A stretch of 64,000 nucleotides of DNA from Raineyella sp. LH-20. Lineage in GTDB: Bacteria; Actinomycetota; Actinomycetes; Propionibacteriales; Propionibacteriaceae. The notes beneath the pieces were generated by a model, which made no database searches, was not told the DNA's origin, and worked only from the letters and a program-made list of their open reading frames with translations. Where the stretch lies: positions 3,534,001 to 3,598,000 of the forward strand of contig NZ_CP137003.1 of assembly GCF_033110965.1 (NCBI RefSeq), in the 5' to 3' direction. Shown one piece after another: positions 40,172-50,493 of this stretch. Numbering within the stretch: position 1 is the first letter of the stretch; each line of letters opens with the position of its first letter. The position numbers were made by a program, and so were the translations under genes.

Positions 40172-41130
40172 GCAGTGCCGATCAGGAGGGCCGAACGGGA
40201 GTCGTCATCGTCGGATCACTCAACGCGGACATCACCGTGTCAACGAGCCGGTTGCCACGCCCGGGCGAGACTGTCCGCGGAAGCAATGCAGCAATCCTGC
40301 CCGGTGGAAAGGGGGCGAACCAAGCGGTGGCGGCGGCACGCCTGGGCGCCCGGGTCTCGCTGATCGGTGCGGTCGGTGACGACAGCAATGGGGCGATGCT
40401 CATCGCCGCGGCTCGCGACGCCGGGGTCGCGACGGATCGCATCCGGACGGTCGCAGGAGTCGCCACCGGGCTCGCCTTTGTCACCGTCGACGACCGCGGC
40501 GAGAACACGATCGTGATCTCGCCCGGCGCCAACGCAAAGATTGATCGGTCGGACGTGCAAGCCAACATCGGCGCGCTCCGAAGCGGCACCGTCCTCGGCC
40601 TCTCCTTGGAGGTTGACATCGATGTCGTGACAGAGGCTGCCCGAATCGCCCACACCGCAGGGACGACCGTGCTCACCAATCTCTCCCCGTTCGCGGATGA
40701 GGTCGGGTCACTACTGGAAGTCACCGATGTATTGCTCGTCAACGAACACGAGGCGGCGCAACTCGTCGGGAAGCCGGACATCACGGACCAGAGCGTCGCT
40801 GCGGCACTGCTGGCACGGGGGATCTCACGGGCGATCGTCACGCTTGGTAGCGACGGTTGCATGGTGATCGATGGAGCCACTCCCGTCGCGCACGTCCCGG
40901 CAGTGCCGGTCCGGGTCGTTGATACGACGGGCTGCGGGGATGCCTTCATGGGCGCGGTGTGTGCCCAGCTCAGTGACGGGGCCTCCCTGCTCGACGCAGC
41001 ACGCTTCGGCGCGAGCGTCGCGGGATATGCGGCCCAGGCACGCGGGGCGCAGCCTTCCTACCCGAATCGACGCGACCTCGAGAACGAGGCGCTCCGGCGT
41101 CGCGCTGAATGCGGGTCTGTCAAGGTGTAA
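40168..41130 (+). CDS. rbsK: Ribokinase-like PfkB sugar kinase
   Basis: 320 residues; the ATG overlaps the lacI stop. GSLNADITV at the start, ILPGGKGANQAVAAARLGA (ribokinase GGKGANQA) and VDTTGCGDAFMGAVCAQL (catalytic Asp of the GCGD loop) are canonical. It should phosphorylate a pentose such as ribose or a close analogue entering through the ABC importer. Its C-terminus ends beside IS debris, so the last residues may be altered. Confidence 0.88.
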   Translation: MSSADQEGRTGVVIVGSLNADITVSTSRLPRPGETVRGSNAAILPGGKGANQAVAAARLGARVSLIGAVGDDSNGAMLIAAARDAGVATDRIRTVAGVATGLAFVTVDDRGENTIVISPGANAKIDRSDVQANIGALRSGTVLGLSLEVDIDVVTEAARIAHTAGTTVLTNLSPFADEVGSLLEVTDVLLVNEHEAAQLVGKPDITDQSVAAALLARGISRAIVTLGSDGCMVIDGATPVAHVPAVPVRVVDTTGCGDAFMGAVCAQLSDGASLLDAARFGASVAGYAAQARGAQPSYPNRRDLENEALRRRAECGSVKV

Positions 41131-41154
41131 CTGGGCTGTTGTTTGGGGTCCGTC

Positions 41155-41260
41155 AGCGGCGGCCCCGTAGACACCGTAATTGTCAGCGTGCACCCGCCGG
41201 ATCTGGACCAGCAGGTACTCATCAGGGCTGCGCTCGGCATCTGGGCCGCGGCCTGGGCGC
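41155..41260 (-). mobile_element. IS3-family transposase orfB remnant
   Basis: On the minus strand the frame reads DEYLLVQIRRVHADNYGVYGA (41161-41221), the well-known block before the catalytic core of IS3 transposases (ERVHAENYGVYG-R-K). It breaks off directly at GVYGA and no integrase core follows. It marks the right edge of the catabolic island. Confidence 0.72.
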
Positions 41261-41457
41261 TGGAGCGTCTCGTACGGCAGGCCGTGGTTCTGCCCCGCCC
41301 CCCATCGGCGAGGCAGAACGCCGGACCCCCACCCGTACGTTGCGCCGAGGACAGCGCGGCCGCAGCGCAGGCCGCGCACACGTCCTCAGCGAGGAACCCG
41401 CATGTGTCACAGTGGTTCCGCTCACACGTTAAGGGCCCGGCCCGGCGATCGGGAAGG
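41261..41457. other. Degenerate DNA, no intact gene
   Basis: No recognisable gene or RNA. On the minus strand one frame carries Cys pairs (HCDTCGF and VCAAC) that could be the remnant of a zinc-binding protein, but there is no complete reading frame or start. Confidence 0.4.
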
Positions 41458-41474
41458 GACCTAGGTCGCCAATC
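41458..41474 (-). promoter_or_regulatory. Shared palindromic box, copy 3 (orphan)
   Basis: GACCTAGGTCGCCAATC, with perfect palindrome GACCTAGGTC. It closely matches boxes at 46191 and 50098. No intact gene lies downstream in the minus direction; the target may have been destroyed by the island and IS. Confidence 0.55.
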
Positions 41475-41583
41475 CCCTCCCTGCCGGAGCACCGCACAGG
41501 CGACCGGGAGGCCACGAGGCGCCAACGACGGCGTGCCGGGCACGCCCACTACGCGAACCACCGGCTCCGGCAGCGCCGCGGCT

Positions 41584-41655
41584 GCTCACGCAGTGCCGGT
41601 GGCTCACGCAGTGCCGGCGGCTCACGCAGTGCCGGCGGCTCACGCAGTGCCGCCT
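41584..41655 (-). repeat. Four 18-bp tandem copies over the stop codon of a serine hydrolase gene
   Basis: Unit GCTCACGCAGTGCCGGCG. Each copy has TCA (TGA on the minus strand) in the same register, and the copy at 41638 supplies the actual stop of the next gene. Confidence 0.93.
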
Positions 41656-43304
41656 GCGCCCCGGATGAACGTCCCCAGACCCGTCCGGTCATAGAAGTCC
41701 AGCCTGACGCTCGCCGCCGGCCCGTTCCCGTCCACGGCGAAGATCGCCCCCGCGAGCCCGTTGGCGTTCTCGCCGACCGAGCGGAACGAAAAGGTGTCCC
41801 CGGTGTAATGGGTCAGCCGAAGGGTGGTGGGTGCCCCGGCGGGCCCCAGCCGTGCCACGAGTGCTCCGCCGTCCTCGGCGACCGTCAGCGGGCCGTAGTA
41901 GGAGTTGGTGTAGCTGCCGACGTACGCACTGTTCGCCCGAGCCGGAGCGACCTGGGCCGGCGGCCGGGAGTAGTCGACTGCGGGCTTCTCGGACTCCGCC
42001 ATCCCGGCGTAGAGCCCGGCGAAGAATCCGAGCCAATCGACCGTGACGTTCCCGTTCTGGGCGATGTCGAAGAAGCCGCTGCTGATCGCATCGGGGATGC
42101 CCTCGGGGTGTCCGTTCGTCAGGACCACGATGCCCAGGTGTTCGCCGGGCAACAGGGCGACCGAGGTCGCTGCACCGAGGTAGAACGCCCCCGCGTGGCT
42201 GAGCTGGAGGTGGGCCTTGTCGTCGTAGGAGACGTTCCAGCCCATGCCGTAGAAGTGGGTCCGGCCGCCCGGCGCCGCCGGCTGGCCGGTGACGTTCTGC
42301 GGGACATGGGTCGCCTGGAGGGCCGCGGCGTCCACGATCGGCGTGCCGGCGTACGTACCGCCGCCGAGCTGTAGCCGGATCCACGCGGCCAGGTCACGTA
42401 CGGTCGAGCTGGCCCCGCCGGCCGGTGCCTCGGCATCGGCGTCGCGGGTGTAGCGGGCCACCCAGGTGCGGTCGTCGGCCCGGACGTGCAGGCGCGCTTT
42501 GTCGGCAGCGGCCTCGTAGGCGGAATGGCGGTAACTGGTCGACGTCATGCCCAACGGGGTGAACAGGACCCGGTCGGCCAGGTCCTCCCAGGACGTCCCC
42601 ATCGCCACGGCGCCGGCCACACCGGCCTCGGTGTAGCCGAAGTTGCTGTAGTTGTAGCTGGACCGGAAGGTGTCCAGCGGCTCCTGGTCCAGGTGGCCGA
42701 GGATGTAGTCGCGGTCGTAACCGAGATCCTCCAGGAGGTCGCCGGAGCCGGTGTGCAGTCCGCTGCGGTGCGACAACAGGTCGGCGAAGGTGGCGTGGGC
42801 GGTCACGAACGGGTCGTGGAGGGCGAACGCCGGGTTGTGCTCGACCACCGGGTCGGTCCAGGCGATCTTCCCCTGCCCCGCCACCGCGGCCAGCACGGTG
42901 GAGGCCAGCGGCTTGGAGACCGAGGCGAGCTGGAACACGGTGTCCGGGCCGACCTGCTCCGGCTTGCCCGCCTCCCGTACGCCGAAGCCCTTCAGATAGA
43001 CGACCTTGTCCTGGTGGACGACGGCCGCGGCGATCCCGGGCACGCCGGTGCGGGTCATGGCGTCCAGGATGAGCCCGTCCAACCGGGCGAGCGCGTGGCT
43101 GACGTGCGTGCTGTCCAGGAGCGGTGGGACCTGCTGCGCGGGGGCCGCCAGCAGGGACGGCGAGCCGCCGGGTGCCCCGTCGCCGCCGCAGGCGGACAGC
43201 GTCGGCAGGGCGGCCAGCCCGAGCGCACCGGTGCCCAGTGCCTTCAGCACCGAGCGCCGCCCCGGGGCGTTCCGACGTGGGGTGTTGTCGAGATCCTGGA
43301 CCAT
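41640..43304 (-). CDS. Exported class C beta-lactamase-like serine hydrolase
   Basis: 554 residues from ATG 43304 (AAGG upstream). RRSVLKALGTGALGLAALPTLSAC is a Tat-like signal with a lipobox (Cys39), so the protein is probably an exported lipoprotein. The penicillin-binding/beta-lactamase fold has SVSK at 128-131 (Ser nucleophile), YSN at 219-221 and an H-A-G near 405 in place of KTG. A C-terminal lipocalin-like domain (SAYVGSYTNSYYGPLTVAEDGGALVARL) is as in the PbpE/estB group. It may be a D-aminopeptidase, esterase or wall peptidase. It lies behind the secreted 898-residue protein. Confidence 0.87.
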   Translation of the reverse strand: MVQDLDNTPRRNAPGRRSVLKALGTGALGLAALPTLSACGGDGAPGGSPSLLAAPAQQVPPLLDSTHVSHALARLDGLILDAMTRTGVPGIAAAVVHQDKVVYLKGFGVREAGKPEQVGPDTVFQLASVSKPLASTVLAAVAGQGKIAWTDPVVEHNPAFALHDPFVTAHATFADLLSHRSGLHTGSGDLLEDLGYDRDYILGHLDQEPLDTFRSSYNYSNFGYTEAGVAGAVAMGTSWEDLADRVLFTPLGMTSTSYRHSAYEAAADKARLHVRADDRTWVARYTRDADAEAPAGGASSTVRDLAAWIRLQLGGGTYAGTPIVDAAALQATHVPQNVTGQPAAPGGRTHFYGMGWNVSYDDKAHLQLSHAGAFYLGAATSVALLPGEHLGIVVLTNGHPEGIPDAISSGFFDIAQNGNVTVDWLGFFAGLYAGMAESEKPAVDYSRPPAQVAPARANSAYVGSYTNSYYGPLTVAEDGGALVARLGPAGAPTTLRLTHYTGDTFSFRSVGENANGLAGAIFAVDGNGPAASVRLDFYDRTGLGTFIRGAGGTA

Positions 43305-43407
43305 CTGACACCTTCTCTGAGAACGGCGACCTGACCGAGGAGCTGCTCGATCGCCAGGGATGCTGGGAGCGGGCCGCACCCGGGGAGGAGCCCCGGGTGC
43401 GGTCCGG

Positions 43408-46104
43408 TCAGTTGTGGTAATAGCCGGTGTACCAATGGCAGCCGTGCAGCGGATTGTGCGGCAACGTCGGGAGGTACTTGTCGGCCCGGATGCCCAGACC
43501 GCCCGCCGAGGGGGTGAGATCGGACGTCGAAACGGGGTCGAACATCCGGTGGTAGATGCTCGCAGGCACCGGCTGGGGATAGTTCGTCTTCCCCCACGGG
43601 GAGCTGTATTTGATCTTCCCCATCACATAGATCTGGTATTCGGGTCGGGCCATCCACGGGTTGTATTCCGGCGCCAGCCCGCCGTCGTTCTGCTGGAGCC
43701 GTGCCACCGTCTCCTCGGGCCACGGGCCTCCGTTGACCGTGAAGATGCCGGCATTGGTGAAGTTCGGTCCGCAGTTGATGTCGCCACCGCCCGAGTAGCC
43801 GTAGTACGTGAGGTCGGTGATGGTGCTGATGTCGAGTTGGTAGACACCGAATTCGAGCGGGGCGAGCCCGGTCCAGGACACCCGTTCGGCGGAGCGGAGC
43901 GCCGCGGAGTAGGTCGGCGTACCGTACGACGGGTCGTCCGTCGCGTGGCACCAGGCCCAGGTCCCCTGGGGAGCGGCCGGGTCGTCGGCGGTCGTGCAGT
44001 TCCAGCTGGTCACGGCCTGGAACTTCGCATAGTCCGCGAGGATCATGTCGGCCTCGCGAGAATAGCCTGCCCGCGTCTCGTCCATCGCCGCCTGGATCTG
44101 CTCACCCAATTGGTTGGCCTTGATCGAGATCTGTTCGTACGTGGGGACGTTCGTGTCCTTGCCGTACTGCCCCATCGCGCTGGCTGCCGAGATCGCCCGC
44201 GATGCTCCGGCGACCGTTGCGGCGACCATCTTCGTGCTCGAATCCGCCAGCTTCGTCGCATTTCCGAAGCCCATCAGCGATCCGAGGACGCCGACGAACT
44301 GATCACCGAACTTCATCCAACTCCACTGGACGTTCGAGTTCTTGTCCACGGCAATCTGGCCGGCCACCCGGTTCGCCGTCGTCTGTGCCTCGGCGGCAGC
44401 CCGGGCGTACGGCTTCCCCAAGGCCGCGGCCCTGGCTCTGATCAGTGCGACCTTGGAGAACTCGTCGATCAGTTCCGTCTTGGTCCGGTCGAAGTCGTCC
44501 TTCGTGTACGCCGAGGTCGGCTGATAGTCGAACCTGGCCAGGGTGTTGGCGTCACTCGTCCAGTTCTCGTCGACGGATCGCCAGTACGCCTGCCGGATGT
44601 CCGGGTCACTCAGTTGGAGTCTCCGCGCGATGTCGGTCATCGCGACCGTGTTGACCTGCGGCCAGGGCTGGGAGGACTGGGGGCCGTACGCCACGTCGCG
44701 AAGTCCGTCGACGGGCAGCGGGATCGGCGAGCTGACCGAGGGGCGGAACAGCGACTCGGTGTCGAGCGACATCTCCGTCGACAGGCGAGAGTCGGTCCCG
44801 ATGTTCTCGGCTCCGGTTCCCTCGCGCGGAGCGGTCGAGGTGCCCGGTCCGACCCAGCCGACGAGGTTGTAGTCGGCACTCGGCGTGGCCGCTGCCCGGT
44901 TGAACTGGTCACGGGTGCCACCGATCGCCGCGATCTGCTGGGCGAGGGCGGACATCGTGTCGTAGTGCACGGCGGGCGCGACGGTGATGTTGTGGGCCGA
45001 GTCGCCGGGATTGCGGATGGACGACACGACCACGACGTCGCCCGGGTCGGTCGTGCTCAGGCCGGCGAGGTACGTCGTCATCGACACCACGTTGGCGGCC
45101 GCGTCGGGGCCGTTGGTGGCGAAGACGGTGTCGTTCTTCTTGCTCAGGGTGAGTTTGTCGTAGACCGCCACGAGGTAGCCGGCACCGCCGTTGAGGGACC
45201 GGACGACGTCGTTGGCTGGGTCACCGACCCGGATCCGGAGCGCGCAGTTGGTCGCTGGCTGGTCACAACCGAAGCTGGACCGCGTGTCGATGGTGACGAA
45301 CTGGTTGGACAGGTAGGTGTAGTTGCCCCACCGGTTCAGCACCATCGGGGCCTGGATCCTCCCACCCTCGTACGTGTCGCTCCACTTGGACTGGACGTTC
45401 TTCTGCACCGGCTGGTCACCCGACCCGGTGACGCTGACGATCATCGAGAAGTCGCCCTGGGCGAGGCTGCCGGTCGGGAACCGGGCGGCGTCCGGGTAGG
45501 TGTATCCCAGCGGCCCGAGGGTGCCCTGCAACCCCTCACCGGCCACCCAACCGGCGGCCGGATGGTTGGTGACGATCACCCGGTAGTTCAGGTCCGCGCT
45601 CCCGTCGACCAGCACCTGGAAATCCTTCGGGAGATCGGCCGCCGTCGCCGTGGAGTACGTACGGCTCAGCTTGACGGTGAGGTCCTGGGTGTTGAGGACC
45701 AGCAGCTGCCACTCGGCCTTGGCACCGTGTCCGTCGGTGTACGACGTGCCGGACAGGAAGGGCGCCGGATGAAACGCCGTGCCGACCCGGACGCCGGGAC
45801 GCCCCGCACCGTCCACCGCCATCGTGTCGAGGGCGACACTCGGGCCCGTCCGGCCCTGGGCCGCGGTGAGGGTCGTGCGCGGCGGCGTGACCGTCCCCAG
45901 CGGGACGGTCGGACCGTTGTTCCCACCGTTGTCATTGTTCCCGTGGTTGTTCTTGCCGTTGTTCACCGCGGCGTTGTTCTTGGCCGTGGCCGGCATCCCG
46001 TCCTTGGGCGCGGCTGCAGCGGACGTACCGATCATCGCCTGCCCGCCCAGCGCAAGAACGACCATGACGGCGGCCAACGACCGCCGCACTCCTCTGCTCC
46101 GCAT
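43408..46104 (-). CDS. Large secreted protein of unknown function
   Basis: 898 residues with GGAGGGG before ATG 46104. The Sec signal peptide (about 1-32) ends ASA-like at AAAAPKDG; an Asn/Gly-rich linker (about 42-65) follows. The next 300 residues are beta-rich with many Thr/Asp; a helical middle (about 500-640) includes SVDENWTSDANTLARFDY. The C-terminus has paired Cys (NCTTADDP...WCHATDD and NCGPNFTNAG). I recognise no catalytic family. It lies directly downstream of the two-component genes and carries the palindromic box 87 nt upstream, so it is probably the main target of that system. Confidence 0.75.
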   Translation of the reverse strand: MRSRGVRRSLAAVMVVLALGGQAMIGTSAAAAPKDGMPATAKNNAAVNNGKNNHGNNDNGGNNGPTVPLGTVTPPRTTLTAAQGRTGPSVALDTMAVDGAGRPGVRVGTAFHPAPFLSGTSYTDGHGAKAEWQLLVLNTQDLTVKLSRTYSTATAADLPKDFQVLVDGSADLNYRVIVTNHPAAGWVAGEGLQGTLGPLGYTYPDAARFPTGSLAQGDFSMIVSVTGSGDQPVQKNVQSKWSDTYEGGRIQAPMVLNRWGNYTYLSNQFVTIDTRSSFGCDQPATNCALRIRVGDPANDVVRSLNGGAGYLVAVYDKLTLSKKNDTVFATNGPDAAANVVSMTTYLAGLSTTDPGDVVVVSSIRNPGDSAHNITVAPAVHYDTMSALAQQIAAIGGTRDQFNRAAATPSADYNLVGWVGPGTSTAPREGTGAENIGTDSRLSTEMSLDTESLFRPSVSSPIPLPVDGLRDVAYGPQSSQPWPQVNTVAMTDIARRLQLSDPDIRQAYWRSVDENWTSDANTLARFDYQPTSAYTKDDFDRTKTELIDEFSKVALIRARAAALGKPYARAAAEAQTTANRVAGQIAVDKNSNVQWSWMKFGDQFVGVLGSLMGFGNATKLADSSTKMVAATVAGASRAISAASAMGQYGKDTNVPTYEQISIKANQLGEQIQAAMDETRAGYSREADMILADYAKFQAVTSWNCTTADDPAAPQGTWAWCHATDDPSYGTPTYSAALRSAERVSWTGLAPLEFGVYQLDISTITDLTYYGYSGGGDINCGPNFTNAGIFTVNGGPWPEETVARLQQNDGGLAPEYNPWMARPEYQIYVMGKIKYSSPWGKTNYPQPVPASIYHRMFDPVSTSDLTPSAGGLGIRADKYLPTLPHNPLHGCHWYTGYYHN

Positions 46105-46190
46105 GGAGACCCCTCCCGTTCGTGTCACGGGCCAGCCGGCGCATGGTGGCCCGCGCAGCACGCTACGGAGGCGACCGCGGACGGGGAATG

Positions 46191-46207
46191 GACCTGGGTC
46201 GCCAGTC
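46191..46207 (-). promoter_or_regulatory. Shared palindromic box, copy 1
   Basis: GACCTGGGTCGCCAGTC, 87 nt upstream of the secreted-protein start. GACC-N2-GGTC core and flanking GCCARTC match copies at 41458 and 50098; a likely site for the adjacent LuxR-type response regulator. Confidence 0.55.
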
Positions 46208-46242
46208 TCCTCATGGTGCGGGTCTTCGCTCGACGCGAGGCG

Positions 46243-46893
46243 TCAGCTCCCGCTGAGGTAGCGCATCACCGCAAGCACTCGTCGGTGCGAATCGGAGTCG
46301 ACCGGCAGATTCAGCGCGTCGTAGATCCGCGACGTGTGCTGGACAACGGCCTTCTCGGTGAGGAACAGCTCGGCGGCGATCCGGGCGTTGCTGCGCCCTT
46401 CCGCCATCAGCGCGAGCACCTGTTGCTGCCGCGGGGTCAGCGAGCGTACGGCCCGGTCAGAAAGCCTGGCGCGCGCGACCATCACGGCGACGACGTCCGG
46501 ATCGAGCGCCGTTCCGCCGGCCACCACCTGACGGAGATCACCGAGGAACGTGTCCACGTCCGCGATCCGCTGCTTGAGCAGATAGCCCACCTTGCCGTGG
46601 GGCGAAGCGAGCAACTCGTTCGCATAGCGGCGCTGGACGTGCTGGGACAGCACCACCACGGCGATCTCGGCGTGCTTCCTGCGGATCCGCAGCGCCGCCT
46701 GCAGCCCCTCGTCGGTGTGGGTCGGCGGCATCCGGATGTCGGTGATGACCAGGTCCGGACGGCACCGGTCGACAGCCTCCTCCAGCGTGGTGGCGTCGGG
46801 TGTCACAGCGACGACCTGCAGTCCGCCCTCTTCCAGCAGCAGGTGCAGTCCGCGGCGGAGCAGCGTCTCGTCCTCGGCAATGATCACCCGCAC
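46243..46893 (-). CDS. NarL/LuxR-type response regulator
   Basis: 216 residues from GTG 46893, overlapping the kinase gene by 10 nt. The receiver domain has acidic ED at 7-8, phosphoacceptor D52 (VITDIRMP), S/T near 82 (VVLS) and K107 (YLLKQR). The LuxR HTH follows (LTPRQQQVLALMAEGRSNARIAAELFLTEKAVVQHTSRIY). It is expected to bind DNA as a dimer after phosphorylation by the kinase. Candidate sites are the boxes with a GACCTAGGTC-like core. Confidence 0.94.
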   Translation of the reverse strand: MRVIIAEDETLLRRGLHLLLEEGGLQVVAVTPDATTLEEAVDRCRPDLVITDIRMPPTHTDEGLQAALRIRRKHAEIAVVVLSQHVQRRYANELLASPHGKVGYLLKQRIADVDTFLGDLRQVVAGGTALDPDVVAVMVARARLSDRAVRSLTPRQQQVLALMAEGRSNARIAAELFLTEKAVVQHTSRIYDALNLPVDSDSHRRVLAVMRYLSGS

Positions 46894-48632
46894 GGCAATG
46901 CCACCTCGATCCGTGTTCCCTGTCCCGGCTCGCTGGCGATGGTCAACCGTCCGCCGAGGACGTCGATCCGGTCCGTCATGCCTCGCAGACCGCGGCCTCG
47001 ACCGGGGTTCGCGCCGCCCACCCCGTCGTCCGACACCTCGATCCGCAGCCAGCCGTCGTCCGAGATCAGGCGGACCGAGGCGCGCGATGCCTGCGCGTGC
47101 TTCACGGTGTTCGTCAACGCCTCGGCGGTGACGAAGTAGGCGGTGCTCTCCAGCGCCGACGACGGCGAGATCTCCCCGATGCTCAGGACGAGCGTGGTCG
47201 GGATGGGCATCCGGTCGGCGAGGTCCTCGACAGCGGCGCCGAGGCCGTGCTCGACCAATGCCGCCGGCATCACGGCCGCCACCAGCTGACGCAGATCGGC
47301 CGCCGCTGCGTCGATCCGTTGGCGCAGCTGGGTCGCGCGTCCTCCGGACGCCGTGTCGGTCCCGGCGGCGTTCGCCAGTTGCTGAGCCTCCAGCGCCAGC
47401 AGCACCAGCTGCACCTGCAACCCGTCGTGGAGGTCCTGGGCGATCCGCCGTCGTTCGCGGTCACCGGCATCCACCAGCCGCTCCCGGGAGAACTGCAGGG
47501 CACGCTGGCTCTCCCGCAGCTCGGCCGTCAGCCGTTCCCTGTCCACGGCGATGGCGATCACCTGTCCCGCGGTCCGCACCAGCTCCGGGTCCGCGATGAG
47601 TTGGGAGTCATAGTGGACAGCACCGACGGTCCGGCCGTCCAGTTCGATCGGGACGAAGCCCCGCGCAGGCCCCGTGTCCGGAACGATCGGGACGCCACGA
47701 TCGTCGACGAAGATGCGTTGCCGCGCGACCCAGAACGACAGGGCCAGGGACGGATCGCCCAGGGCCCGTGACAGGGCGCGGGTCAGCGCCGGCCGGCTCC
47801 CGTCCGAGGCGCTCAGCCAGGCGCCGAGTTCCTCCAGTTCGCCGGTCCTGGCGAAGCCTCCGCGCAGCATGCCGAACACGAACACGAACGGAACGCCGCC
47901 GAGGACCAGCAGCTGCCACGCCGCCCGGCCTTCGGCACTCAGCCCGAACACCGGTGTCAGCACCAGCGAGCTCACGGGGATGAAGAGAGCCGCGCCGACC
48001 CCGTAGGTGAAGAGCGGGGCGAGAACGCGGCGACCGGCGGCATCCGTTCGCACCAGCCGTCCGATCAGGACAGCCGCGGTCGACACCATGACCCCGGCGC
48101 CGACGAGCTGCTGGAATCCCATGCCGAGCGCCCGGGCAGTGGGGTCGTCCGCCAGGAAGAGGACCTGCGCGCGGACGGTCGGATCGAAGACGTACTTGGG
48201 CGCCTGGAGGACGAGCGAGGTGACGTACGCCGCCGCCACCGTCGCCACCGGCACCGGGCCGATCAGTCGCCCGGACGGGAAGGCGAGCAGCAGGTGCACC
48301 AGGACGGCGAGGATGAGGGTCGCACCGACCGTGCCGACGGCGACCAGTCCCGGCACCCCGGTGGCCTGCAGGCTGCCGATCCAGACGGCCAGTCCACCGA
48401 ACAGGATCACCGCACCGAGTCGATTGCTCGGGCGCCGGTACCAGGCGCGGAGCCCGGCGCCGAGGTAGGCGAGGCACACCGCAGGGAACAACAGCAGGAC
48501 GCCGCCCCCGGCGTCGCGCCACGGCAGGAGGGCCGTCTGCACGCCAACCAGTCCCAGACCGGAGCACAGGATCACCAGCAGCGCCCGATCGAGCGAACGG
48601 GCAAGATTGGGCCGTACGACGACGGGGCGCAT
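46884..48632 (-). CDS. Sensor histidine kinase (HisKA_3/NarX-DesK type)
   Basis: 582 residues from ATG 48632. About 7-9 membrane helices (residues 15-290) form the sensor. A GAF-like region precedes the dimerisation domain RRRIAQDLHDGLQVQLVLLALE (phospho-His in LHDG), and the HATPase domain has N-box EALTNTVKHAQ and G-box DDGVGGANPGRGRGLRGM. No periplasmic domain of size is present, so it likely senses a membrane or lipid signal. It is coupled to the regulator. Confidence 0.93.
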   Translation of the reverse strand: MRPVVVRPNLARSLDRALLVILCSGLGLVGVQTALLPWRDAGGGVLLLFPAVCLAYLGAGLRAWYRRPSNRLGAVILFGGLAVWIGSLQATGVPGLVAVGTVGATLILAVLVHLLLAFPSGRLIGPVPVATVAAAYVTSLVLQAPKYVFDPTVRAQVLFLADDPTARALGMGFQQLVGAGVMVSTAAVLIGRLVRTDAAGRRVLAPLFTYGVGAALFIPVSSLVLTPVFGLSAEGRAAWQLLVLGGVPFVFVFGMLRGGFARTGELEELGAWLSASDGSRPALTRALSRALGDPSLALSFWVARQRIFVDDRGVPIVPDTGPARGFVPIELDGRTVGAVHYDSQLIADPELVRTAGQVIAIAVDRERLTAELRESQRALQFSRERLVDAGDRERRRIAQDLHDGLQVQLVLLALEAQQLANAAGTDTASGGRATQLRQRIDAAAADLRQLVAAVMPAALVEHGLGAAVEDLADRMPIPTTLVLSIGEISPSSALESTAYFVTAEALTNTVKHAQASRASVRLISDDGWLRIEVSDDGVGGANPGRGRGLRGMTDRIDVLGGRLTIASEPGQGTRIEVALPCG

Positions 48633-48714
48633 GAACGGCAATCTAGCCTCACCCCACGCGTGGAGCGCCACCGTCGGCCCGGTGAGCGCTCGGGTCGTCG
48701 CCGGGGCCGCCACG

Positions 48715-50016
48715 TCAGGACTTGGGATTGGGCGTGAAGGCGTGCCCGGTGGCGGCGGAGACCGCGGTGAAGATCCGCACCGCCGGATCCATGCAGGGCA
48801 GCCCCTTGGGAGTGTCCGGCAGGGTCTTCGACGCGGTGCATCCACCGGAGGGGATGTCGCTGTTGGCCAGCACGACCACCGTGGTGTCGTTGGTCGTGTC
48901 GTAGAACAGTGTCGTGTTGTAGCCCGGCAGCTCCCCGGTGTGGCCCACCCACCCGTCGATGCAGCCGACAGCCAGGCCGTAACCGGCCGTGCCCGGGAAG
49001 GAGGACAGCCGGTCCACCTGTGCCGTGGTGTCGAGGAGCCCCTGGCCGGTGCCGAGGGCCCGCCCGTACACCAACAGGTCGTCGACCGACGAGACCATCT
49101 GGCCGGCGGTCCAGGCCCAGGTCGGGTTCCAGTCGGTCGTGTTGATCGGGGTCGTCGACCCGTCGGGGGTGCCCTGCAGAGTGAATCCGCTGGCGTGCGG
49201 CGCGGGCAGCGAGTCCGAGGCGCTCGGCATCGACGTCGTCGACAGCCCCAGCGGAAGGAGCACCTGCTCCGTGAGGACGTCGGCGTACGGCTTGCCGGTG
49301 ACCTTCTCGATGACCTTGCCGAGCAGGATGGTGTTGGTGTTGGAGTAGTCGAACTTCGCCCCCGGGGCGAACTGCGGCGGCAGGGCGAGGCCGACGGCCA
49401 GCAGCTCGTCCGGCGTCCAGGTCCGCTGCGGGTCAGCGAACAGCTTGTCCGTGAAGGCCTGGTCCAGCGTGTAGCTGGCGATCCCGCTGGTCATGGTCAA
49501 CAGCATCCGCAGGGTGACGTCCTTGCCGTTCGGAACGCCCGGAACGTACGTGCTGATGGGGTCGTCCAGCGTCAGCTTGCCCTGCTGGGCGAGCTGGAGG
49601 ACGAGCGTGCCGGTGAAGGTCTTGGTGACCGATCCGATCCGCTGGTGGACATCGGTCGTCATCGGGGCCTTCGTGGTCGGATCAGCCACCCCGTACGCCT
49701 TCGTCCACGTCCCCTGCGGACTCCGGACCGCCACGACGGCACCCGACGTGGCGGCCGCCGTGAGGCCCTCGGCGGCCGCGGCATCCAGCGCCGCTGCGGT
49801 CTCCGCGGGCATCACCGCCGTGGCCCGGGCCGAGGGCGTACGCACCGCGACGGCTTGTGGATCGGCGACGCAGCCGGTAGGGGCGGACGTGGTCGCCGTT
49901 GACGGCCGGCCCGCAGCATTCTCCGACCGAGCGGACGGAACCGCAGCGCACGCCGCCAGGAGGATGACGAGCACACCAGCCGAGACTGCGCGGACGAGGA
50001 AGCTCCGGCGGATCAC
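48715..50016 (-). CDS. Exported serine hydrolase, D-Ala-D-Ala carboxypeptidase/class C type
   Basis: 433 residues. GTG 50016 is preferred, with GGAG 8 nt upstream. Lipoprotein signal LVILLAAC (Cys23). SVTK at 129-132, YSN at 224-226 and HTG (GWVGHTGELPG) form the penicillin-recognising active site. Such proteins act as carboxypeptidases, esterases or lactamases outside the membrane. The C-terminus contains three Cys. It is upstream of the two-component pair and has the palindromic box 82 nt before its start, which places it in the same regulon. Confidence 0.87.
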   Translation of the reverse strand: MIRRSFLVRAVSAGVLVILLAACAAVPSARSENAAGRPSTATTSAPTGCVADPQAVAVRTPSARATAVMPAETAAALDAAAAEGLTAAATSGAVVAVRSPQGTWTKAYGVADPTTKAPMTTDVHQRIGSVTKTFTGTLVLQLAQQGKLTLDDPISTYVPGVPNGKDVTLRMLLTMTSGIASYTLDQAFTDKLFADPQRTWTPDELLAVGLALPPQFAPGAKFDYSNTNTILLGKVIEKVTGKPYADVLTEQVLLPLGLSTTSMPSASDSLPAPHASGFTLQGTPDGSTTPINTTDWNPTWAWTAGQMVSSVDDLLVYGRALGTGQGLLDTTAQVDRLSSFPGTAGYGLAVGCIDGWVGHTGELPGYNTTLFYDTTNDTTVVVLANSDIPSGGCTASKTLPDTPKGLPCMDPAVRIFTAVSAATGHAFTPNPKS

Positions 50017-50097
50017 AGGGGGTCTCCGTTCGATCGGTCGAGGTGCCGCCACGGCACATCGACCCCATCGTGTCCGGTGGGCGGTCCGCCGTCGATA

Positions 50098-50114
50098 GAC
50101 CTGAGTCCCCAGTG
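50098..50114 (-). promoter_or_regulatory. Shared palindromic box, copy 2
   Basis: GACCTGAGTCCCCAGTG, 82 nt upstream of the serine hydrolase start; same spacing as copy 1. It matches copy 1 at 13 of 17 positions. Confidence 0.5.
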
Positions 50115-50144
50115 GCCACCGTGCGCACCGAAGACCCAGGCACC

Positions 50145-50190
50145 CGGAACGACGATCGGCCCCGATTCCTGAGGGAGTCGAGGCCGATCG
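50145..50190 (-). terminator. Imperfect terminator hairpin after tRNA-Lys 1
   Basis: GATCGGCC...GGCCGATC around a GAG loop forms a long stem with two mismatches, 20-60 nt past the 3' end of the tRNA. The counterpart beside tRNA 2 is perfect. Confidence 0.55.
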
Positions 50191-50214
50191 TTCCGCGTCG
50201 TTACGCGGATCTGG

Positions 50215-50287
<73 letters not shown>

Positions 50288-50493
50288 GCGCGAAAAGAAA
50301 CACTAGCAGCCACCTCGACCGTCACCCAAATCGAACGACAGCCGGCGGCTCCGTCCGGGAACGTATCCCGATCCACACCGGCATGAACAGCTGCCTCCTC
50401 CGCGACGATGCCAGCCGCTTGCGGAGACCACGACCTTTGTTGAAGACGAAACCTTCGGTAGCATCACACAGGCAGACGTAGGGACGGGAATCG

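Follow-up and report, generated by a model that had tools for sequence, protein, structure and literature searches.

Here, we analyse a 17-nucleotide (nt) box, a putative operator, that recurs around the genes for a sensor histidine kinase and a NarL/LuxR-type response regulator in a 64,000-nt stretch of the Raineyella sp. LH-20 genome (NZ_CP137003.1, positions 3,534,001 to 3,598,000; this whole stretch is the window, and coordinates are positions within it). The analysis followed an original prediction that three copies of the box might define a two-component regulon. All three 17-mers were found at 46191, 50098 and 41458, as it had stated, and are on the plus strand as written; read in gene sense, i.e., on the minus strand, they are TGGSGACYYAGGTC. 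The predicted distances are also right, with 87 nt between box 1 and the start of P899 (ATG 46104) and 82 nt between box 2 and the start of BlaB (GTG 50016), and the boxes bracket the regulator and kinase genes. From their conservation and distribution, we consider it very likely that the two-component system encoded next to the boxes uses them as operators. The genes lie on the minus strand in the order BlaB, kinase, regulator, P899, BlaA, and the regulator gene overlaps the end of the kinase gene:

50098..50114, minus strand: box 2 (gene sense CACTGGGGACTCAGGTC), putative operator of BlaB and perhaps also of the two genes that follow BlaB, kinase and regulator
50067..50072, minus strand: −10-like hexamer CACGAT, 25 nt after box 2
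48715..50016, minus strand: BlaB, serine hydrolase (PF00144; SVTK, YSN and HTG motifs; lipoprotein-like start by reading)
46884..48620, minus strand: sensor histidine kinase (HisKA_3 and HATPase_c; hydrophobic N-terminus, no Pfam sensor domain); the start codon is our choice
46243..46893, minus strand: NarL/LuxR-type response regulator (Response_reg and GerE; recognition helix TEKAVVQHTSRIY)
46191..46207, minus strand: box 1, putative operator of P899; gene sense GACTGGCGACCCAGGTC, then CATTCC; conserved before P899 in the relatives G061 and G009
46160..46165, minus strand: −10-like hexamer TAGCGT, 25 nt after box 1
43408..46104, minus strand: P899, protein of 898 residues with a signal-like start and no known family
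41640..43304, minus strand: BlaA, serine hydrolase (PF00144 and DUF3471), with no box of its own in this genome
41458..41474, minus strand: box 3, putative orphan operator; gene sense GATTGGCGACCTAGGTC; flank nearest to the P899 promoter of G009
41426..41431, minus strand: −10-like hexamer TAACGT, 26 nt after box 3
41215..41284, plus strand: C-terminal relic of a permease of the ABC-2 type (16 of 21 residues identical to the end of a permease in G044; 58 nt at 83%)

At up to two mismatches, the box pattern matches the window three times, while 100 dinucleotide shuffles gave a mean of 0.37 matches and at most 2. The genome search proposed in the original prediction, performed on the single contig of 3,632,335 bases (G000), returned three exact matches, all of them the known boxes, and no match with one mismatch; at up to two mismatches, 18 places matched vs 20 for a reversed control pattern, which is background. 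A large genome-wide regulon was considered but not found: with the sequence model described below, only the three boxes had E<0.1 in this genome in a scan under Infernal's stricter filters, the next match having 0.138. That three GC-rich words are alike by chance is suggested by the core GACCTNRGTC alone, which occurs near chance frequency (54 places with one mismatch vs 43.5 expected, in the window), and by the pattern having been picked after it was seen. Because the core is near chance, significance is carried by the longer box and its conservation; as the three copies were themselves the source of the pattern, independent tests are the better evidence. Coincidence is refuted by the conservation of the box at orthologous promoters, and its uniqueness in the whole genome, its specificity among family genomes, the held-out boxes and the −10 spacing, all described below, leave this explanation with practically no probability.

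Two relatives of the family share the locus. G061 keeps the gene order BlaB-kinase-regulator-P899-BlaA, while G009 has the same genes split over two contigs; in both, the box precedes the BlaB, P899 and BlaA orthologues, box 2 being the one conserved before BlaB. G022 lacks P899 altogether and has no BlaB in the locus; upstream of its kinase gene, the box persists together with a stretch resembling the BlaB start. In G169, the box lies between the kinase gene and a divergent alpha/beta hydrolase gene (PF07859), whose frame is apparently broken or shifted near the start. In a weight matrix, these 11 sites score 26 to 33 bits, and everything else in the window and the thirteen scanned loci scores at most 19. 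A pattern search of six genomes returned three additional sites outside the locus, two of which precede exported-looking proteins: in G022, a collagen-like/collar-domain protein that begins with a hydrophobic stretch has a site 97 nt upstream, and in G169, a site lies 83 nt upstream of an exported-looking protein with a weak, sub-threshold Ig-like similarity. The third is an orphan in G022 (L073, 4968, plus strand) that points at the end of a gene for an ammonium transporter (PF00909); a hairpin of 20 pairs separates the two.

A sequence-only model built from 14 sites (the first set) was run on 198 family genomes and matched at E<1e-6 in five, exactly those with a close kinase/regulator pair. 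In the same-genus genome G044, which has no kinase match at 1e-60, the best model match had an E of 0.57. Weak matches (E<=1), which a short motif is expected to give, were present in 172 of the 198 genomes, among them these five. Weak hits were inspected in G032, G059, G060, G156 and G164, and those in G156 and G032 look like coding sequence. In G059, a DevR-like sequence, GGGACCTAAGTCCC, was seen on contig C18 near 103489-103527 (L086, L115), close to another kinase/regulator pair. The kinase itself matched at E<=1e-60 in 13 genomes, i.e., the five box genomes and eight of genus g19; the latter have kinase matches yet no strong box, and they were kept in the counts.

The box has a fixed position relative to a −10-like hexamer. 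In 10 of the 14 first-set sites, the pattern NANNNT lies exactly 25 nt after GGTC; in the remaining four, the distance is 26 nt. The bases of the −10 region played no part in site selection. With the hexamer taken as −12 to −7, the centre of the dyad falls near −42.5, the position of a class II activator. A sigma-70 promoter scan of 40900-50300 returned no promoter-like site, which is expected if activator binding replaces the −35 element. The same two observations, a fixed distance and no sigma-70-type match in this region, would also fit the box being part of a promoter for an alternative sigma factor and no regulator operator at all. We regard this as very unlikely: the element has dyad symmetry; in L135, a single dyad flanked by a −10 on either side separates divergent hydrolase genes, and L134 has neighbouring boxes between divergent hydrolase genes; box presence tracks the kinase/regulator pair and the recognition helix; and a −10 of the form NANNNT is ordinary for the housekeeping sigma factor.

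Boxes were also found in loci of other genera that had been chosen without reference to the box. With the kinase alignment as the query, 80 named loci were taken from among the matches listed, to which the locus counts that follow refer; the genera include Microbacterium, Subtercola, Herbiconiux, Glaciibacter and Pseudoclavibacter. One fetched contig (L116) is labelled Sporosarcina beigongshangi; its GC content is 65-67% and its kinase is 60% identical to that of the window, and the assembly is probably mislabelled or contaminated. The 28 closest loci (L116-L143) hold 18 boxes scoring at least 15 bits, in 12 loci, while the 52 more distant loci (L144-L195), which served as controls, have two that score at least 15 (L145 and L188). 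Ten of the 18 held-out boxes precede PF00144-type genes (nine genes, eight of them confirmed by Pfam and the ninth, in L139, broken and recognised by tblastn alone). Of the other eight, three stand before the kinase gene (L121, L129 and L134), three before other proteins that look exported and one before an exported-looking fragment at the end of a locus; the last precedes nothing. The broken gene in L139 (6243-6884) is a Glaciibacter BlaB homologue under a good box, broken or internally deleted, and its open part has no Pfam match. In the held-out set, NANNNT lies at 25 nt in 12 of 18 sites, compared with 0.55 expected per offset. Fuller dyads are present in L120, L134, L135 and L138, and combining the fullest forms seen among relatives gives roughly GGAATRGACCYRGGTCYATTCC.

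The box also follows the recognition helix of the regulator. All five family genomes with the box have the helix EKAVVQHTS, from which the g19 regulators depart; seven of the latter were aligned, with HAVARNIS in three, RAAEKYVS in two, KTVEAYVR in one and LRAVVQHTS in one (G041). Two of the HAVARNIS genomes have a different dyad upstream of BlaB: CAATGTGGAGTTACCTCCATTG in L035 (5965, plus strand) and a form with three mismatches in L034 (10913, minus strand). Across the 80 loci, a box scoring at least 15 is present in 10 of 16 loci with an EKA[VI]VQH helix vs 4 of 64 others (Fisher test, p 3.5e-6, a value that ignores kinship among the loci). Operator and regulator appear to diverge in concert, GACCYRGGTC going with EKAVVQH and the dyad of L034 and L035, which resembles GGAG-N4-CTCC, with HAVARNI. 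These data bear on whether another transcription factor binds the box and the two-component system is a mere neighbour, an idea left some room by the fact that we deduce regulator-box binding from sequence. That the box follows the helix, that it precedes the kinase gene itself in L121, L129 and L134, and that it occurs in 12 of the 28 closest loci compared with 2 of the 52 distant ones make such a factor highly improbable.

Several observations weigh against the boxes being operators of this system. Apart from the neglect of kinship in the test above, a box scoring at least 15 is missing from 16 of the 28 closest loci. Four of the 18 held-out sites come from L134, where two serve the same gene, and the single dyad of L126 was counted twice. 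A strong box in L128 points into the 3′ end of the regulator gene. The helix association has exceptions on both sides. Six of the 16 EKA[VI]VQH loci lack a box scoring at least 15: in L135 and L138, PF00144-like genes are preceded by variant dyads, detected in a looser search, that have a −10 at 25 nt, L123 has a 14.8-bit palindrome just past the regulator gene, L133 has a weak candidate directed away from the kinase gene, nothing convincing was found in L122, and the L142 sequence is only 3.8 kilobases long. Conversely, boxes scoring at least 15 outside the helix group occur in L119 (where the regulator is cut off), L126 (EKAVVHH, with a PF00144 target), L145 and L188. Although its kinase match is better than that of G169, G041 has only a diverged box; this box, with a −10 at 25 nt, lies before an exported FG-GAP protein directly after the regulator. 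Large exported FG-GAP proteins that are 39% identical to each other are encoded in L031 (9841-13203) and L119 (3525-6827), the former under a diverged box and the latter under a good one. In the window, the boxes are palindromic in the core only, and BlaA, which the original prediction omitted, has no box, though its orthologues in two relatives have one. Finally, proteins were called exported from a hydrophobic start and a lipobox pattern, not with a signal-peptide predictor.

Box 3 scores 30 bits, and its flank is 85% like the P899 promoter of G009 over 47 nt. There is no convincing gene between box 3 and the convergent PfkB-family gene; the permease relic, identified as such by reading the translation, sits between that gene and box 3. 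In G061 and G009, a further PF00144 gene, BlaC, overlaps the BlaA stop; it is missing from the window, where an 18-bp tandem repeat stands in its place. These repeats, at 41579-41668 in the 3′ end of BlaA, form four overlapping 36-nt copies and, by reading, resemble the junction of BlaA stop and BlaC start in the relatives. The sequence after box 3 was also searched for traces of locus genes, BlaC and P899 among them; none was convincing, the match to BlaA being BlaA's own end. The original prediction that the third box has lost its gene is supported: the box has a −10 at the expected spacing but no convincing gene, the permease relic lies beyond it and a repeat stands where relatives have BlaC, so box 3 was likely orphaned by the loss of some gene. 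We also considered that box 3 drives a small structured RNA, given that its −10 is intact, that the 156 nt after it fold with a z of −4.45 and that the orphan box of G022 likewise precedes strongly folding sequence (z of −4.42). However, the stretch after box 3 has no match in G022, no similarity was found between the two folding stretches, the hairpins can be explained as terminators of convergent genes, and the permease relic marks the region as rearranged debris, all of which makes a small RNA improbable compared with gene loss.

The proteins of the locus fit a sensor and its regulator amid exported hydrolases. The regulator matches PF00072 (62.6 bits) and PF00196 (46.5 bits), and its DIRMPP stretch is conserved; the kinase, whose gene adjoins the regulator gene, matches PF07730 and PF02518, with His398 within LHDGLQ. 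The SxxK, YxN and HxG motifs of class C-like serine hydrolases (PF00144) are all present in BlaA (SVSK128, YSN219 and HAG370) and BlaB (SVTK129, YSN224 and HTG359). The NCBIfam model bla_class_C scored 79.2 bits with BlaB and 68.1 bits with BlaA, under its curated cut-off of 415 (among the best 25 of 46-48 families). The NCBIfam models nearest to the kinase and regulator among the matches listed, i.e., MadR, MctR/MctS, UhpB and LiaS, have the same domain layouts as the proteins here; all scored far under their curated cut-offs, and therefore none of them names this system. For P899, neither Pfam nor NCBIfam gave a match at E<=0.001, nor did PDB sequences at E<=1, and its AlphaFold model is useless (mean predicted local distance difference test score, 29.4). 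A first scan of genome contigs with P899 as the query gave no match, and among 391 genomes of the order, its relatives are only in G061 and G009. The G061 copy (L027, 8813-11502) is frameshifted near residue 793, which is either real or a sequencing error.

Altogether, the co-occurrence of box and kinase/regulator pair, the held-out boxes in other genera, the fixed −10 distance and the association with the recognition helix support the predicted two-component regulon. While we computed the box, its conservation and co-occurrence, the −10 spacing and the downstream genes, we infer from these the binding, phosphorylation, direction of control and signal. According to our model, an envelope signal would activate the membrane kinase, and a dimer of the phosphorylated NarL-type regulator would bind the dyad (core GACCYRGGTC), centred near −42.5. 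By class II activation, the bound regulator would recruit the RNA polymerase to a promoter that has a −10 but lacks a recognisable −35 and, in this way, raise the expression of exported PF00144 serine hydrolases and other exported proteins; with a box before the kinase gene in several relatives, the system may also raise itself. In this genome, the regulon would be small and local, comprising P899, BlaB (perhaps together with the kinase and regulator genes downstream of BlaB) and an orphan promoter with its gene probably deleted. The original prediction also proposed control of a secreted wall-active or adhesive apparatus: exported serine hydrolases and other exported proteins as targets are compatible with this, but no single apparatus is visible.

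DevR/DosR of Mycobacterium and OsdR of Streptomyces coelicolor share with this system a NarL-type regulator, a palindromic operator and boxes around their own genes; they differ in that the core here is GACCYRGGTC, the regulon is small and local, and the targets are exported hydrolases and other exported proteins rather than dormancy and stress genes. The DevR operator consensus has GGGAC-N4-GTCCC ends; both ends occur together in no box of the window and are present in the relatives L123 and L126. The kinase of DevR/DosR/OsdR systems is a GAF-domain redox or oxygen sensor, unlike the window kinase, which has no Pfam GAF match at E<=0.001. BlaR1/BlaI and AmpR, which mediate beta-lactamase induction, likewise control genes for class C-like serine hydrolases; here, an HisKA_3 kinase and a NarL regulator take their place, and no BlaR1/BlaI/AmpR-type protein is among the five locus proteins scanned. 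The start-proximal DevR site overlaps the −35 element (PMC3029386), and the OsdR site is a 16-nt palindrome, AGGGCCGATCGGCCCT (PMC5069765). The work on CrbS/CrbR of Pseudomonas describes an ACTU motif that is an imperfect inverted repeat, often GAC-N4-GTC, at −52 to −36 of the acs start, with one predicted site including GACCTAGGTCC (PMC5715377). CrbR resembles the regulator here in its LuxR-type family and in operator layout and position; the systems differ in the SLC5 transporter domain of CrbS, the acetate genes and the lineage. The window kinase has no SLC5 Pfam match at E<=0.001. A literature search, with most subscription journals outside its reach, returned no paper on this operator or system, and apparently this is a separate system of the NarL kind that is undescribed so far.

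On a broader and rather doubtful view, we speculate that this is a widespread undescribed actinobacterial envelope-sensing system in which the HisKA_3 kinase senses a ligand that derives from the wall or is of the beta-lactam type, and in response induces a set of exported PF00144 hydrolases with activity on this same ligand, a feedback separate from BlaR1 and AmpR, with an operator-regulator pair that apparently diverges in concert. With the boxes as putative operators, an uncharacterised actinobacterial kinase/regulator family would gain an operator, a promoter geometry and a target set. Consequently, what many exported proteins do, PF00144 lipoproteins among them, would become testable via one regulator, and the link between helix and operator may provide a natural series for the evolution of NarL-type specificity.

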